Positions 26,978 to 32,945 of a stretch of 64,000 nucleotides of DNA are shown here, piece by piece (position 1 is the stretch's first letter; each line of letters opens with the position of its first letter). The notes beneath the pieces were generated by a model. That model ran no database searches and was not told the origin of the DNA. It saw only the letters and a list, made by a program, of their open reading frames with translations. The DNA comes from Candidatus Gastranaerophilales bacterium (lineage in GTDB: Bacteria; Cyanobacteriota; Vampirovibrionia; Gastranaerophilales; Gastranaerophilaceae). The stretch covers positions 1 to 64,000 of the forward strand of contig CALUQN010000002.1 in NCBI GenBank assembly GCA_944322945.1, in the 5' to 3' direction. The position numbers were made by a program, and so were the translations under genes.

Positions 26978-27818
26978 TACTCTGGCGGAGTCTGGAGGCT
27001 CTTGTTTCGCTGAGGATATTTTTCAACTTCATAATACCCTGTGCGTGGAGCTGGCAGACACGGGATTCCGACATATTAATTGTTGCACCGATTTCTTTGA
27101 GGGTCATATTTTCCTGATAGTAGAGAACCATTATAATTCTTTCGCGCTCTGGGAGTCTTTTCAGTGCTTTTTCCAGCTCTGATTTAACATTTTTTTCTTC
27201 AACTTCTTCATGCGGGGTGAGTTTATGAGTATCTTCAATAGTATCAATAATTTCGACGCTGTCGTCAGCATTGCCGCGTTTGTCATATATAGAAGTCATG
27301 ACCGTATCTTCCGAGAGAAGCTGCGTTATTTTTTCAGGATCCATATCCATATACTCTGCCACTTCGGAAGTTGTCGGGACTCTGCCCAGCTGTTGTTTTA
27401 AGAGTTCCTGAGCGTCTTTAATATCTTTAATTTTCTTTCTGACGCTGCGCGGGAGAAAATCTTCCGCTCTGATTTTATCCAGGATAGTGCCGCGGATTCT
27501 GATGAGAGCGTAGGTTTCAAACCTTGTATTTTTCTGCGGAGAAAATCTTTCAACCGCATTTATAAGCCCTTCTACACCGTATCCGGCTATATCTTCTATT
27601 GATATCGTTGCCGGCAGAGTAATTTTGACACGTCCGACAACGTAACGTATCAGATAAATATACTGAACAATAAGAGTATCCCGCAATGTTTTGTTGTTTT
27701 TGTCTTGAAAATACTCTTGCCAGAGTTTTTCCAACTCTTCGGGAGGGAGTCTTTTAATATTATTGTAAGATGTAAAATCAAAACTCTGATCCATTAATTT
27801 ACCCAAAATATTGTTCAA
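26967..27818 (-). CDS. fliA: Sigma-28 family flagellar RNA polymerase sigma factor
   Basis: 283 aa with sigma regions 2, 3 and 4 and no region 1. Region 2 shows DIAGYGVEGLINAVERFSP and TRFETYALIRIRGTILDKIR. Region 3 has LGRVPTTSEVAEYM. Region 4 has ALKRLPERERIIMVLYYQENMTLKEIGATINMSESRVCQLHAQGIMKLK. FliA recognises TAAA/GCCGATAA promoters, and two candidates lie in this window (2809-2836, 13767-13794). No flgM anti-sigma gene was seen. Confidence 0.9.
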   Translation of the reverse strand: MNNILGKLMDQSFDFTSYNNIKRLPPEELEKLWQEYFQDKNNKTLRDTLIVQYIYLIRYVVGRVKITLPATISIEDIAGYGVEGLINAVERFSPQKNTRFETYALIRIRGTILDKIRAEDFLPRSVRKKIKDIKDAQELLKQQLGRVPTTSEVAEYMDMDPEKITQLLSEDTVMTSIYDKRGNADDSVEIIDTIEDTHKLTPHEEVEEKNVKSELEKALKRLPERERIIMVLYYQENMTLKEIGATINMSESRVCQLHAQGIMKLKNILSETRASRLRQSIIV

Positions 27819-28025
27819 TAATTAACATATTACTATTCTATACAATATAGAAAGAGTAACATCATTTAAAAAGAGGAAAAACTTCCAATATACTCAAGAT
27901 GATGTAGAAAAGCCCATGCCGGACAAACAAAAGTCAAATTTTATTTGTTCGGGAAAAAGACGCGGCTGGATTTATGCTCCGCTATTCATAAAATTTAAAA
28001 AATTGCGCAAAAATTTTTATGTTCA

Positions 28026-28034
28026 TGTTATTAT
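28026..28034 (+). promoter_or_regulatory. Extended -10 of the Trp-codon leader
   Basis: TGtTATTAT, with transcription expected near 28041. A TTGCGC sits upstream but at poor spacing (20 bases). Confidence 0.3.
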
Positions 28035-28064
28035 ATATTTGAAAAAGGAAAAAATTAGTCGAAT

Positions 28065-28142
28065 ATGAATTACATCCAACAAAACAAAACACAAAACTGG
28101 TGGTGGCTGCAAAAAAGAGCAGGCACGTTTTGTTGGCGTTAA
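28065..28142 (+). CDS. 25-aa leader peptide with three tandem Trp codons
   Basis: ATG at 28065 reads 25 codons to TAA 28142. UGG codons occupy positions 12, 13 and 14, with another at 24. The segment CCAACAAAAC (28076-28085) is perfectly complementary to GTTTTGTTGG (28127-28136), putting the Trp codons in the loop of a hairpin. CAGGC (28120-28124) can instead pair with GCCTG in the terminator that follows (28175-28210). This is the layout of a transcription attenuator. The ribosome-binding site (AAGGA) is rather far, 15 bases, from the ATG. Confidence 0.5.
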   Translation: MNYIQQNKTQNWWWLQKRAGTFCWR

Positions 28143-28174
28143 ATATTTGAATAAAACATACACAACAATAAAAT

Positions 28175-28210
28175 AGCCTGTTCGAGAGAGTCCGAGCGGG
28201 CTGTTTTTTT
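28175..28210 (+). terminator. Terminator after the Trp leader (attenuator candidate)
   Basis: AGCCTGTTCG (28175-28184) pairs with CGAGCGGGCT (28193-28202), followed by GTTTTTTT. It lies 36 bases before the next gene's ATG, so read-through would decide its expression. Confidence 0.8.
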
Positions 28211-28245
28211 AGGAAATTCAAATATTTAATGAGGTTACGAAAAAA

Positions 28246-29493
28246 ATGCAGATAAACAATTTAATCAATACTTTACCTAACAAAATTTTGAGAAATACGA
28301 CGAAATTTCTGGCAAAACAGGAGCAGTCAGAATCATTGTCGCATGTACGTTTTGTGCAAGATACAGTGACTAATCTTATACCTAAAGCGACATTTGCGCG
28401 GAGTTTTGCTGATTTGAGCGAAAATTCATTTCAGGAAGTCGGAGAGAGCGTACTTGTTTATTACACGCCAAAACTCTTAGGCAACGGTTTTTTCAGACCT
28501 TTATATGAGCGCGGGCTGGATGCGGCGGCAAGACAAAAAATTTCAACCCCGATGACAGAGCTTAACAAAGACGCGTCAATTTCCGCTGAAAAATTAAAAG
28601 AGATTAAACCCATAAAAGCCGCAATCGCCGCAAGCTGTCTGATAATTCCGCTTGCTGAATACTCTTTGTGCTATTTAAAGAATTTATTTACATTAAAGGT
28701 ATTTCATCAGGCTGATTTTAATAATATTGCGAACCTGAACAAAGACAAAAAGAAAATAGAAGAGCGCGCAAGACAAGAAAAAGTAAAACGCCACGCAATA
28801 AACAACATGCTCGGCGCAGCCGCTGCCTTTGGCGGATGTTTGCTGACGTCGCTTCTGCTTGTCAAAAGAGGAAAAAGCTCAAATGCCCTTCAAAAACTCA
28901 GCGATATTATACTCACACCGGGCAGCGTATTCTTCAAAAATAATAAGAAAAAAGCTGCTGCAGTGAATAAATATTTCAGTCTTGATTTTCGTGATGATAA
29001 CGGCAAATTGAGTTTAAGCCACGGGCAGTTGACATCTTGTGTATTGCTCGGCGGCGCCGGATATTTCGGCTCATCGGCTGACAGAGGTAAACAAAATTTC
29101 CTGGAAACATTATTCAGATTTCCGCTGGTCGGATTTTATGTAGTAACCGGCAGCGAGATGTTTGAACGTGCATTCAAAAAGATTTTGCGTAAGAAAGACA
29201 GTTTTAAAGACACAATAACAAACGATTTAAAAGTTCCTGACTACAAAAACCTGCCGGAACTTGCACAAAAACTGGCAGAAAAGAACAAAACCACGGTTGA
29301 AACAGAATTTGCTAAACTTTGCAGGCAAAAAGCCTTAATCGCAGGAGTGCCGTTCTTATTCGGAATGTTGTTTATGGGAATGTTTGTAGCCGGGGTATCC
29401 AGGGCATTTACGCAATACAGATACAATCATGAGCAGAAAAATATGCCGACAAACCTGATAGCCCGCGCAAAAATTAATGCCCAAAAACCGTAA
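28246..29493 (+). CDS. Unrecognised 415-aa membrane protein behind an attenuator
   Basis: An N-terminal soluble region (about 1-120) is followed by hydrophobic segments near 125-150, 180-205, 265-280, 293-312 and 365-390, separated by basic helices (DKKKIEERARQEKVKRH, KNNKKKAAAVNKY). The pattern does not resemble a known amino-acid transporter. I do not recognise the family, and it may be lineage-specific. The leader with Trp codons upstream suggests control by tryptophan or Trp-tRNA, which is inference. A bidirectional terminator separates it from the convergent carbonic anhydrase gene. Confidence 0.75.
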   Translation: MQINNLINTLPNKILRNTTKFLAKQEQSESLSHVRFVQDTVTNLIPKATFARSFADLSENSFQEVGESVLVYYTPKLLGNGFFRPLYERGLDAAARQKISTPMTELNKDASISAEKLKEIKPIKAAIAASCLIIPLAEYSLCYLKNLFTLKVFHQADFNNIANLNKDKKKIEERARQEKVKRHAINNMLGAAAAFGGCLLTSLLLVKRGKSSNALQKLSDIILTPGSVFFKNNKKKAAAVNKYFSLDFRDDNGKLSLSHGQLTSCVLLGGAGYFGSSADRGKQNFLETLFRFPLVGFYVVTGSEMFERAFKKILRKKDSFKDTITNDLKVPDYKNLPELAQKLAEKNKTTVETEFAKLCRQKALIAGVPFLFGMLFMGMFVAGVSRAFTQYRYNHEQKNMPTNLIARAKINAQKP

Positions 29494-29590
29494 AATTAAT
29501 CCTTTACCGTTAATGTGCGCGTTATTTGCTGAAACAGGACAAATGACCCGCGCGCCGGCATGACACAAATTCTCTCCGCCGCTTCTCCCT

Positions 29591-29625
29591 AAAAAAGAGC
29601 AGACAAGATGCCTGCCGCCGTTTTT
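29591..29625. terminator. Bidirectional terminator
   Basis: AAAAAAG, a GCAG...CTGC stem (29599-29615) and TTTTT, between convergent genes ending at 29493 and 29631. Confidence 0.6.
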
Positions 29626-29630
29626 AATGT

Positions 29631-30209
29631 CTAATCAATTTCACTCACAATGCCGGTTGAGTGGTCAAGATGGCATTTTGCTATGTACAATTTATCGTTA
29701 TCAACAGCTGTTTTGATAATTTTTGATTTTTCAAGCAGAACTTCTTCCACCCACAATGTATGCTGCTGCGCAAAATAGTTATGGCAGGTTATATCTTCTT
29801 TTTTATCCAGAACCGGATACACACAGCTGATTATAGATTTAAAATCATCGGTTTCTTCCGGATAATGGTCTTTTGCATACTTCATAACACCGCAGTCATC
29901 ATGCCCGAGAAGAACAAGCAGCGGAACTTCTAGTTTTTTCACGGCGTATTCAATACTCTCGATTACGTTCGGCCCGGCGGTTATACCCGCAACCCTTACG
30001 ACAAAAAGTTCGCCTATTCCGCAGTCAAAAATTATCTCCGGTACTACACGCGAATCTGAACAACTAAGAATTACAGCCCGCGGCTCCTGATGGAATGCAA
30101 ATTTTTTCAATGTCTCAAGACACATGTTCTTTGCGGTCGGCGTGCCGTTTACAAAATTTTTGTTACCGTTTAAAAGTCTTTCCAGTTCTTTTTTAGCTTT
30201 TTCGTTCAT
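29631..30209 (-). CDS. Beta-class carbonic anhydrase
   Basis: 192 aa from the start chosen. It interconverts CO2 and bicarbonate. The zinc ligands and catalytic dyad are visible: CSDSRVVPE (Cys, Asp-Arg dyad) and GHDDCGV (His and Cys). FVVRVAGI and IESIEYAV are typical of the family. The open frame continues to 30236, but a perfect TATAAT lies six bases before the ATG at 30209, which is the better start. It would supply bicarbonate for carboxylases such as the acetyl-CoA carboxylase feeding the fab genes. Confidence 0.9.
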   Translation of the reverse strand: MNEKAKKELERLLNGNKNFVNGTPTAKNMCLETLKKFAFHQEPRAVILSCSDSRVVPEIIFDCGIGELFVVRVAGITAGPNVIESIEYAVKKLEVPLLVLLGHDDCGVMKYAKDHYPEETDDFKSIISCVYPVLDKKEDITCHNYFAQQHTLWVEEVLLEKSKIIKTAVDNDKLYIAKCHLDHSTGIVSEID

Positions 30210-30215
30210 AGAGGT

Positions 30216-30221
30216 ATTATA
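30216..30221 (-). promoter_or_regulatory. TATAAT box six bases before the carbonic anhydrase ATG
   Basis: TATAAT on the minus strand, six bases, ATG 30209, no ribosome-binding site. Leaderless candidate. Confidence 0.5.
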
Positions 30222-30305
30222 TACCATTTCCGCCAAAAACTCAAATGCCTGTAGGATTGCTTTTTCTCCGGAATTTAATATGATAACTTTAAAAAGGAAT
30301 TTTAT

Positions 30306-32945
30306 ATGGAATTAACGGAACACACGCAGGCGATTATCAACTCCGCCAAATCAATTGCAAATGCAAGAAACTACATGATGGTAGAACCCGAACAGATTTT
30401 GCTGGCATTGATGTATGATAAAAATGATTTGCCAAAAATTTTGCTCTCTAAAATAGGACTGGACAATCCCTCACTTTCACAGCAGCTCGATGGGTTTATC
30501 ACAAAACGGGGCTGCAAACCGCTGGGCAATTACCGTGACCTGCCGCTTTCCAAAAATACCGTAAAACTACTTGAAATCGCCCGTGATGAAGCAAGGATGA
30601 CGAACGATTCTTTGATAAGCATAGAACATCTTCTGCTTGCGCTTTTGAAAATAGACAGCGGGGTGATAATTTATCTTTTTGAAAAAAATAAAATTTCCCG
30701 AAAAGACCTCTATGAAAAACTAATCAGCGTGATAAAAAACATCACGACCGTTGACATAACAACATCAACGCTGCCGGAAACAACGGCACAGCCTGCTGCC
30801 GGCGAAGCACAGCCAATCGTGTCAGCCCCTGAACAAAAAACACAAACCCCGCTTGAAAAGTTTACGGCAGACATAACAGAAAAAGCCAAACAAAACAAAC
30901 TTGACCCGGTCATCGGACGTGATGACGAAATCCGCCGCGTGATACAAATTTTGAACCGCCGCTCTAAAAACAATCCGATAATTATAGGCGAACCCGGCGT
31001 CGGCAAAACCGCTATAATCGAAGGGCTTGCCCAGAGAATAGCCTGCGGAGATGTCCCCGAAAGTCTTAAAAATGACCGGATAATGGAGCTTGACCTTGGC
31101 GCGCTGATGGCGGGTGCGTCTTACAGAGGAGAATTTGAAGACCGCCTCAAAGGCGTCTTAAAAGAAATTGAAGAGCACTGTGAAGATTTAATGCTGTTTA
31201 TAGACGAAATCCATACAATAATGGGTCTTGGTGCCTCGGAAGGCTCCGTAGACGCAGGAAATCTTCTCAAACCAATGCTTGCACGCGGAAATGTCCGCGT
31301 CATCGGTGCCACCACAACTGACGAATACAGAAAATATATAGAAAAAGACAAAGCTCTTGAACGCCGTTTTCAGCCGGTTGTTGCGGAAGAGCCATCTGTT
31401 GAAACAACGATAAGTATTCTGCGCGGCTTAAAAGATAAGTACGAAGCTTACCACGGGGTGAAAATTCTTGATGACGCAATTGTTCAGGCAGTAAAATTAT
31501 CTGACAGATATATTACAGACCGTTCGCTGCCGGATAAAGCCATTGATCTTATTGACGAAGCCGCTTCATCTTTGAGGATTGCAATAGACACCATGCCCGA
31601 AGAAATTGATGTTTTCATCAGAGAAAAAATGCAGCTTGAAATCGAAAAAGGCGCACTGAAAAAAGAAAATACAAAAGAGGCTGATGCTAAAATCCAAAAA
31701 ATTCTTAAAAAAATTGAAGTGATTGACGCAAAAATTAATAAGTTAAAAACACGCTGGCAGCAGGAAAAGAAACTCATAGAAACAACAAGAATTTTGAAAA
31801 AGAATATGGCGGCAATAAAAGCGCAGCTGGAATTGAACAAAAAAAATTCTTCTCCTGATATAAATATTGAAAAACGTTACGCACAGATGGCGGAAACACA
31901 AAAGAAACTTGAGGCAATACAGTTAAAGTCGTCAAAAACACGTCTTATCAAAGAGGAAATCGACGGAGAAGATATCTCGGAAATTATCTCAAAAGCAACA
32001 GGAATTCCTGTGACAAGCCTGCTGGAAGACGAATCACAAAAACTTGTTCACATGGAAGACCACCTGAAAAAACGGGTTGTAGGTCAGGAGGAAGCAGTTA
32101 AAAAGATTGCTGACGCCATAAGGCTTGGACGTTCGGGATTGAATGACCCCAAACGACCGATAGGAACATTTCTTTTTCTTGGACCGACAGGAGTGGGCAA
32201 AACAGAGCTTGCCAAAGCGCTTGCGGAATTTATGTTTAGCGACGAAGATTCGCTTATAAGGATTGATATGAGTGAATTTATGGAAAAACAGAATGTATCG
32301 CGGCTTGTGGGTTCAGCCCCGGGGTATGTCGGCTACGAAGAGGGCGGGCAGCTCACGGAAGCCGTACGCCGAAAACCTTATTCCGTCGTACTTTTTGATG
32401 AAGCGGAAAAGGCGCATCCTGATATTTTTAATATCATGCTCCAAATGTTTGATGACGGCAGGCTTACAGACGGACAGGGGCATCTGATTGATTTTAAAAA
32501 TACCGTAATAATTATGACCAGCAATCTTGCAAGCGATATTCTTTTGAATGGAGAATTGACTGAAAGCGATAAGGAGCAGCAGGTTAAATGTGTGTTGAGA
32601 AGCAAATTCAAACCGGAATTTATCAACAGGATAGATGAGATTATACAATTTAACCCGCTGAAAATCGAGCAGCTGAAAAATATTGTAGATATACAGCTTG
32701 CGGCGCTCAAAGCACGAATGGCAGAACAAAAACTTACGCTGGAAGTGGCAGACAGCGCCAAAGAATACATAGCCAAAGAAGGTTACGAACCGTTATACGG
32801 AGCCAGACCGCTCAAACGAGTGATGAGGAAACTTTTAGAGATACCGTTATCCATGAAAATTATTGCGCACGAATTTTCGCAAGGGGATACAATCGTTGTG
32901 GATTGTAATGATGGCGGATTGAAATTTACAAGAGCAAAAACATGA
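30306..32945 (+). CDS. clpB: ClpB-type AAA+ disaggregase
   Basis: 879 aa with a double-ring AAA+ layout: an N-domain (1-145), a linker rich in Thr/Ala/Pro, nucleotide-binding domain 1 with Walker A GEPGVGKT near 226 and LFIDEIHT, a coiled-coil middle domain (about 420-560), and nucleotide-binding domain 2 with GPTGVGKT near 626, [11 protein letters not shown] and FINRIDEI. The long coiled coil argues for ClpB, which rescues aggregated proteins with DnaK, over ClpC. No ClpP-binding loop is evident. The stop codon is directly followed by a TGCAAACGTTACGTTTGCA repeat. Confidence 0.85.

Follow-up and report, generated by a model that had tools for sequence, protein, structure and literature searches.

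A probable tryptophan-codon attenuator ahead of a tryptophan-free predicted membrane protein in Gastranaerophilales, with relatives that carry Met, Cys or Ser leaders

The leader and its RNA helices

Within the window (the whole 64-kb stretch of DNA that was analyzed), a short open reading frame lies upstream of a gene for a predicted membrane protein of 415 amino acids (28246-29493) that contains no tryptophan. All features described here are on the plus strand. The protein and its relatives are referred to as family A, and the branch that includes the window protein as the Trp-led clade. The short reading frame at 28065-28142 encodes MNYIQQNKTQNWWWLQKRAGTFCWR followed by a stop codon, and is a putative leader with clustered Trp regulatory codons; its 25 codons, with UGG at codons 12-14 and 24, are as the first-pass annotation of this DNA had described them. 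The three tandem Trp codons (WWW) occupy 28098-28106. The sole candidate for a Shine-Dalgarno motif of the leader is AAGGA at 28045-28049, 15 nt before the ATG; this spacing is longer than usual and is a weak point of the locus, and a GGA is likewise found 11-15 nt before the leader start in relatives. A scan of the window for a short open reading frame with a residue run, then a hairpin leading into a T run, and then a gene, identified eight candidates, among which this locus has the most stable hairpin. A stricter version of the scan, with a tight Shine-Dalgarno rule, gave no candidates and missed this leader too.

The RNA from 28041 to 28250 is predicted to fold with an energy of -57.9 kcal/mol, compared with -33.0 +/- 3.7 kcal/mol for 200 dinucleotide shuffles (z -6.65), none of which (0/200) was as good. 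In this fold, segment 1 (GCTGC, 28106-28110) pairs with segment 2 (28117-28125) unless a ribosome blocks it, and segment 2 is common to this protector helix (1:2) and to an antiterminator (2:3). Segment 3 (28175-28184) serves both as the partner of segment 2 and as the 5' arm of an intrinsic terminator (3:4), which spans 28171-28210 with its U tract and has a stability of about -20 kcal/mol. The duplex of segments 2 and 3 (-15.2 kcal/mol) contains the motifs CAGGC/GCCTG; a strong terminator, and an alternative pairing of these motifs that could sequester it, had both been proposed on first reading, and both were found. When the 5' part through WWW and segment 1 was masked and segment 4 was still untranscribed, the 2:3 helix formed in silico at -19.4 kcal/mol, and when segment 2 was masked the terminator formed instead. 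The two computed folds correspond to the alternative states of a classical attenuator. Furthermore, WW(W) stands immediately before segment 1, or overlaps it, in the window leader as well as in those aligned with it, such that a stalled ribosome would mask segment 1. The observation of a putative Trp attenuator at this locus is confirmed, and lies far above chance expectation.

Two further helices are found around these segments. A perfect 10-bp hairpin (5' arm 28076-28085, 3' arm 28127-28136) places the tandem Trp codons in its loop. A 16-bp outer helix, absent from the first-pass annotation and visible both in the fold and in relatives, pairs 28137-28152, which overlaps the leader stop codon, with 28216-28231; it encloses the terminator and reaches the ribosome-binding site of the regulated gene, the Shine-Dalgarno-like TGAGG at 28230-28234. 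A scan of 27000-30500 against Rfam, with E values up to 5, gave no T-box or SAM riboswitch match. The scan did return matches to Thr_leader (18.2 bits, against a gathering score of 55) and to OxyS, each far below its gathering score, and these were rejected as chance.

Conservation of the proposed switch among relatives

For the Trp-led clade, 59 loci were fetched (L001-L059); four of these (L031-L033 and L044) are repeats, which leaves 55 distinct loci. In 53 of these 55, the same gene is preceded by a short leader with tandem UGG codons. Counted over all the loci fetched, a short open reading frame with TGGTGG precedes the gene in 44/44 of L001-L044 (the four duplicates included) and in 13/15 of L045-L059. 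The two exceptions, L057 and L058 of genus g9, have a single Trp in the leader and keep the terminator and the 2:3 pairing. Loss of the Trp codons with retention of the terminator had been named beforehand as an outcome that would speak against an attenuator; it is seen in part, in this one genus and in 2/55 loci, with a single Trp remaining. Leaders with WW are also present in 5/5 loci from other families of the order. By our own sorting, the Trp-led gene is present in 45 of the 97 genomes of the family sample, and its leaders are of three types: the long type seen in the window, a type ending in SWQ, and a very short type ending in WWRL and a stop codon.

Because arms that are picked by a program will always give some pairing, only a comparison of own with foreign partners counts as evidence for the antiterminator. 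Loci were chosen for this comparison as one or two per genus, giving 32 that are Trp-led and 17 from the Met-led sister clade described below. In the Trp-led loci, the own partner of the 2:3 helix was better than partners from other genera (KS p 1e-6), and the same was true in the Met-led loci (KS p 2e-4), although these p values overstate independence since the sequences are related. In L030 and L055, the sequence of the helix has been wholly replaced and the pairing retained. The predicted antiterminator is a helix whose pairing partners covary between genera.

A hairpin with a T tract passed the terminator rule in 50 of the 57 Trp-led loci tested, and the seven loci without a recognized terminator (L017, L024, L025, L028, L030, L051 and L055) were dropped. 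Three of them (L017, L024 and L028) make up genus g6, in which WW is kept with no recognizable T-tract terminator; here the Shine-Dalgarno sequence may be paired instead, a possible shift from transcriptional to translational control. The first-pass annotation had suggested checking the Trp run, the 10-bp hairpin and the terminator in relatives. The Trp run and the terminator are kept, as is the antiterminator, but the hairpin is lineage-specific: it occurs in the closest relatives only (where L004 has a C-G pair replaced by T-A), does not characterize the short leaders, and does not belong to the core of the switch.

A covariance model built from the short leaders (R1) matched 24 of the 97 genomes (E 0.01 or better), with 24/24 of these matches directly upstream of the Trp-led gene; matches to this model, and to a further model (R2), arise partly by construction because the models were built from the leaders themselves. 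Twelve weaker matches to R2 were read, of which one is a Cys leader (G015:C29) and another, L168, is a TGGTGG inside an ordinary gene end. The remaining ones, including L177 and L178 in the window's own genome, looked like ordinary gene ends with terminators and were set aside.

The regulated protein and its relatives

The closest named relatives of the regulated protein come from Candidatus Gastranaerophilales (Melainabacteria) MAGs, with 85-89% identity. The protein has no Pfam or NCBIfam family, and its sequence has no relative in the PDB (best E 0.53), in line with its earlier description as an unrecognized membrane protein, and it does not appear to belong to a known Trp-related family. 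Pfam searches with 75 family members gave scattered weak matches, to at most 10/75 members for any one family, and these were rejected. An AlphaFold model based on a 75-row alignment is helical (pLDDT 89.9, pTM 0.85). Foldseek searches of this model against the PDB and viral models gave nothing at E 0.001 or better, and the best VIA Z score of 5.4 is within the chance range for helical bundles. Between one and three hydropathy segments reach the threshold in each of 18 proteins, which is few for a transporter, and the halves of family A show a weak internal repeat (hhalign 20%).

The regulated gene is monocistronic, with the next gene mostly on the opposite strand or separate, and no conserved informative neighbor was found beyond close relatives. 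In the window, the gene adjoins one for a flagellar-type sigma factor and is about 3.4 kb from flagellar basal-body genes. Distant family A members in another order of the class (L195, L196 and L200) lie between two flagellin genes.

At the level of the class, family A was identified in 97 of 240 genomes (E 0.001 or better), reaching other orders; single genomes have as many as six matching stretches, and these relatives are Trp-containing proteins. Some of them (L191, L198 and L200) have Met-containing short open reading frames and strong terminators upstream, so Met control may be older than Trp control. A third, distant relative of about 360 amino acids (L155, L156), which is leaderless, is found in some genomes.

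Avoidance of tryptophan and the Met-led sister clade

The absence of Trp from the window protein, which was not part of the first-pass annotation, is shared across the Trp-led clade: 51 of the 55 distinct loci encode no Trp, and the other four encode one. A paralogous clade of 20 loci, whose proteins are 37-45% identical to the Trp-led ones, has at least one Trp in 20/20, and the two sets form separate groups on a fully supported branch of a quick tree. For example, alignment column 96 (window residue 44) is W in 20/20 paralogues, and in the Trp-led proteins is L in 49/55 and W in 4/55; column 505 (window residue 388) is W in 19/20 paralogues, and in the Trp-led proteins is F in 52/55 and W in 0/55. 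The polarity of these changes in family A is uncertain; the position of residue 44 is often W in distant class-level relatives, and on our own reading is L in L155 and L156. Trp-free proteins are not rare singly (9 of 43 neighboring open reading frames of 340-520 amino acids), and the telling point in these predicted proteins is the conserved absence of Trp together with the contrast to the paralogues, rather than any single Trp-free protein.

The paralogous genes have no TGGTGG leader. Instead, Met-rich leaders such as MKLNNLMMMYMMLMPMPKLRDGLLL are found before T-tract hairpins in 19 of the 20 loci (L060-L078), and also in L148 and L154, which come from another family of the order. The composition of the proteins differs in parallel. 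The Trp-led clade has 0.02% W, compared with 0.70% in neighboring open reading frames, and the Met-led clade has 0.88% M and 0.40% C, compared with 2.10% M and 1.42% C. Both copies occur in 12 listed genomes, of which 11 were compared in pairs (G009 was left out, and close relatives are among the pairs): the Trp-led copy has the lower W content in 11/11, and the Met-led copy the lower M content in 11/11 and the lower C content in 10/11. These depletions may rest on few events. The twentieth paralogue locus, L079 (G012:C33), is a diverged member of family A whose leader is rich in Ile and Leu. Its protein has 3.04% Met, where Met-led proteins have 0.43-1.35%, and 7.97% Leu, where they have 9.45-12.68%, a composition that fits this leader, in one sequence.

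A second family with Cys and Ser leaders

The weak R2 match at G015:C29 is a leader with a run of Cys codons (CCCC) before a different membrane protein, which we call family B. Among the family B loci L202-L221, a start was found in 18, in which nine leaders have Cys runs and nine have Ser runs. L216 and L217, with no start, are outside this count, and the wider stretches L236 and L237 show Ser-run leaders; further Cys-run leaders are present in L227, L228, L231 and L232. Among family B loci of at least 40% identity that showed no leader by eye or by script, L233 carries a degenerate one, and L229 was read from a downstream start. Family B genes also occur as the divergent neighbor of a Met-led gene, about 600-700 bp apart, at G094:C8, G065:C1 (Ser-led) and G062:C33 (Cys-led).

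Cys-led family B proteins contain 0.19% C and 6.87% S, Ser-led proteins 0.54% C and 5.09% S, and leaderless tandem relatives 0.41% C and 7.56% S. Comparison of the nine Cys-led with the nine Ser-led proteins gave p values of 0.003 for Cys and 0.013 for Ser (Mann-Whitney). The Ser-led proteins are one clade nested within the Cys-led ones, and in this clade the regulatory amino acid and the composition seem to have switched together, from Cys to Ser.

Comparison of families A and B by hhalign gave 26% for the whole proteins and 73% for their C-terminal parts, with 57% for the two halves of family B, and the order of helices in the two models is compatible. These values are suggestive only of a remote relationship between the families, each with two repeats. 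The family B model had no Foldseek match at or below E 0.001. An N-terminal motif, approximately F-x-G near residues 10-35 (PAFKGPLDG, PRFGGL, FTAK), recurs in both families, including L222 of the window.

Tryptophan physiology of the host

In the window's genome, which is 98.6% complete, there was no match to PF00290 (TrpA) or PF00218 (TrpC), and TIGR00263 (TrpB) gave a short, weak match below the cut-off; controls worked in each case. The search covered these three proteins. With no proper match to any of them, Trp auxotrophy is probable for this organism, and a switch that responds to Trp starvation would therefore serve acquisition rather than synthesis. Within the family, TrpA is present in 8 of 97 genomes, and the Trp-led gene is found in 1/8 TrpA-positive and 44/89 TrpA-negative genomes, a weak link that is not significant (Fisher p 0.065). 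The avoidance of Trp by the protein and the missing trp genes would both fit a role in Trp starvation.

Proposed mechanism and alternative explanations

Taken as a whole, the locus is likely to be a ribosome-mediated attenuator that acts on an amino-acid-specific starvation membrane protein, purged of the limiting residue and plausibly serving its uptake. When charged tRNA-Trp is ample, the leading ribosome would move through WWW to the end of the leader, and transcription would stop at the terminator (3:4); any message that reads through could also close the outer helix beside the ribosome-binding site. Under Trp shortage, the ribosome would stall on WWW and cover segment 1, leaving segment 2 to pair with segment 3, in which case the terminator could not form and the gene would be transcribed. 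The product, being free of Trp, can therefore be made during a Trp famine.

To our knowledge, this leader-attenuator architecture means amino-acid-dependent read-through wherever it has been studied. Trp-dependent read-through is expected here for that reason, and the gene very probably responds to Trp starvation. The existence of a Met-led sister clade, and of a second family led by Cys and Ser, makes the proteins look like amino-acid-specific starvation proteins. Uptake of the limiting amino acid (here Trp) is suggested as their job by leader amino acids that differ among paralogues, by the occurrence of Cys and Ser (and of Trp and Met) leaders within the same families, and by cells that seem to be without the pathway; this is a plausible assignment that we hold with somewhat less than even confidence. 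More tentative is the wider proposal that these undescribed membrane families are famine proteins, each with one attenuator amino acid (Trp, Met, Cys, Ser and perhaps Ile/Leu) of which it has been purged, in which regulatory codon and composition switch together, and that they constitute a new superfamily of two-repeat importers.

The main rival is a residue-sparing isoform, which during starvation would replace a housekeeping membrane protein of unrelated function and would not transport the scarce residue. A composition that follows the type of leader in families A and B is consistent with this, as is the apparent change of a family B leader from Cys to Ser within one clade, and the leaderless tandem paralogues of family B could be the ordinary isoform. 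However, the Trp-led copy is the sole family A member in the window's genome, which leaves no evident isoform to replace, and to spare two to four Trp residues in one protein is little saving. We regard the sparing isoform as rather unlikely, although it is the alternative that survives best.

Control might alternatively be mainly translational, with the outer helix hiding the ribosome-binding site or the start codon and the terminator secondary. The outer helix has support in many genera: over 26 genera, its own arms pair better than foreign ones (KS p 6e-5), while genus by genus 6/26 are at or below 0.05, with a median of 0.125, and the helix is absent or weak in several. In several relatives the 3' arm covers the Shine-Dalgarno sequence or the AUG itself, with the AUG inside the helix in L009, L016, L018, L022 and L052. 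This test of own against foreign arms used the stricter terminator rule. Counts from a first terminator finder (26/56 Trp-led and 5/18 Met-led loci at p < 0.05) are unfit to stand alone, as it chose wrong hairpins certainly in L017, L024 and L028 and probably in L013, L027 and L049; the run dropped the near-copies L010, L031, L032, L033, L044, L048, L066, L067 and L154, and also L079. With the same finder, the Met-led loci taken together gave no sign of the outer helix (median z 0.1). Genus g6, with no recognized terminator, again points towards translation, and on our own reading UUCC/UCCU-like segments there may pair with the Shine-Dalgarno sequence. Set against this, T-tract hairpins pass the rule in most Trp-led loci (50/57) and of the two pairings the antiterminator has the stronger support, such that translation is improbable as the main level of control. 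As a second, translational lock that acts alongside attenuation, the outer helix finds moderate support, with the chances standing about even.

Trp-rich leader peptides are also known from tna operons, where the arrest residues of TnaC are W12, D16, I19 and P24, and a leader of this kind would sense free Trp through a nascent peptide in the exit tunnel rather than by stalling on Trp codons. In the leaders compared here there is no conserved Pro after WW, and many of them end two codons past it, the short ones stopping after Arg-Leu directly 3' of WW. Save for WW, the peptides vary widely in length and sequence, and sister genes carry runs of Met, Cys or Ser instead; arrest of the TnaC type is very improbable at this locus. 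AT-rich DNA can mimic an attenuator, and the window has seven other loose candidates, but an ordinary terminator of an upstream transcript beside a chance Trp-rich reading frame, with no regulation, is already contradicted by tandem Trp codons at the same place in 53/55 relatives and by Met-led sister genes without the TGGTGG leader, and can safely be dismissed.

Relation to known systems and biological meaning

Attenuators of the Yanofsky type (trpL) provide ribosome-mediated control of the trp operon in Proteobacteria and Actinobacteria. The attenuator described here is like them in its short leader reading frame, in the tandem Trp codons just before segment 1, and in the alternative 2:3 and 3:4 helices. 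In contrast to trpL, the target is an uncharacterized membrane protein rather than trp biosynthesis, trpS or a known transporter, many genera have an additional helix that extends to the ribosome-binding site or the start codon of the gene, and there is no Rfam match at E values up to 5 except the two far below gathering scores. T-box, TRAP and S-box systems control Trp and Met genes in response to the same physiological inputs, whereas here a translated leader would do the sensing. Searches of the open-access literature found nothing on leader peptides in Gastranaerophilales, and did not find leader-peptide attenuation by runs of Met, the matches to which looked unrelated.

There are also parallels for the Cys leaders and for the biased composition. 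In mycobacteria, poly-cysteine leader reading frames of cys operons respond to Cys availability (Canestrari et al. 2020, as described in PMC9031893; PMC1262725). The Cys-led members of family B are similar in having runs of Cys codons in short upstream reading frames; in the mycobacteria it is cys operons that are controlled, reportedly with no conserved hairpins of the terminator kind, whereas the target in family B is an uncharacterized membrane protein with a terminator-like hairpin. Biosynthetic enzymes have been shown to have low cognate bias, with TrpA recounted as having no Trp, and the median bias for Met was not significantly low (Fasani and Savageau 2014, PMC4209129). The common theme would be that proteins needed in starvation avoid the scarce amino acid. 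Unlike that reported for the enzymes, the depletion here appears to track the type of leader among paralogues of membrane proteins, with Met included.

If this interpretation is correct, it would assign a physiological trigger to unannotated protein families of a widespread uncultured gut lineage, and would offer a route to their substrates, since the leader names the amino acid. Low cognate bias would then hold not for biosynthetic enzymes alone but also for membrane proteins, in what seems to be an auxotroph. The paralogues, which vary both in regulatory codon and in the residue they avoid, would be a natural experiment in the re-aiming of a regulon.
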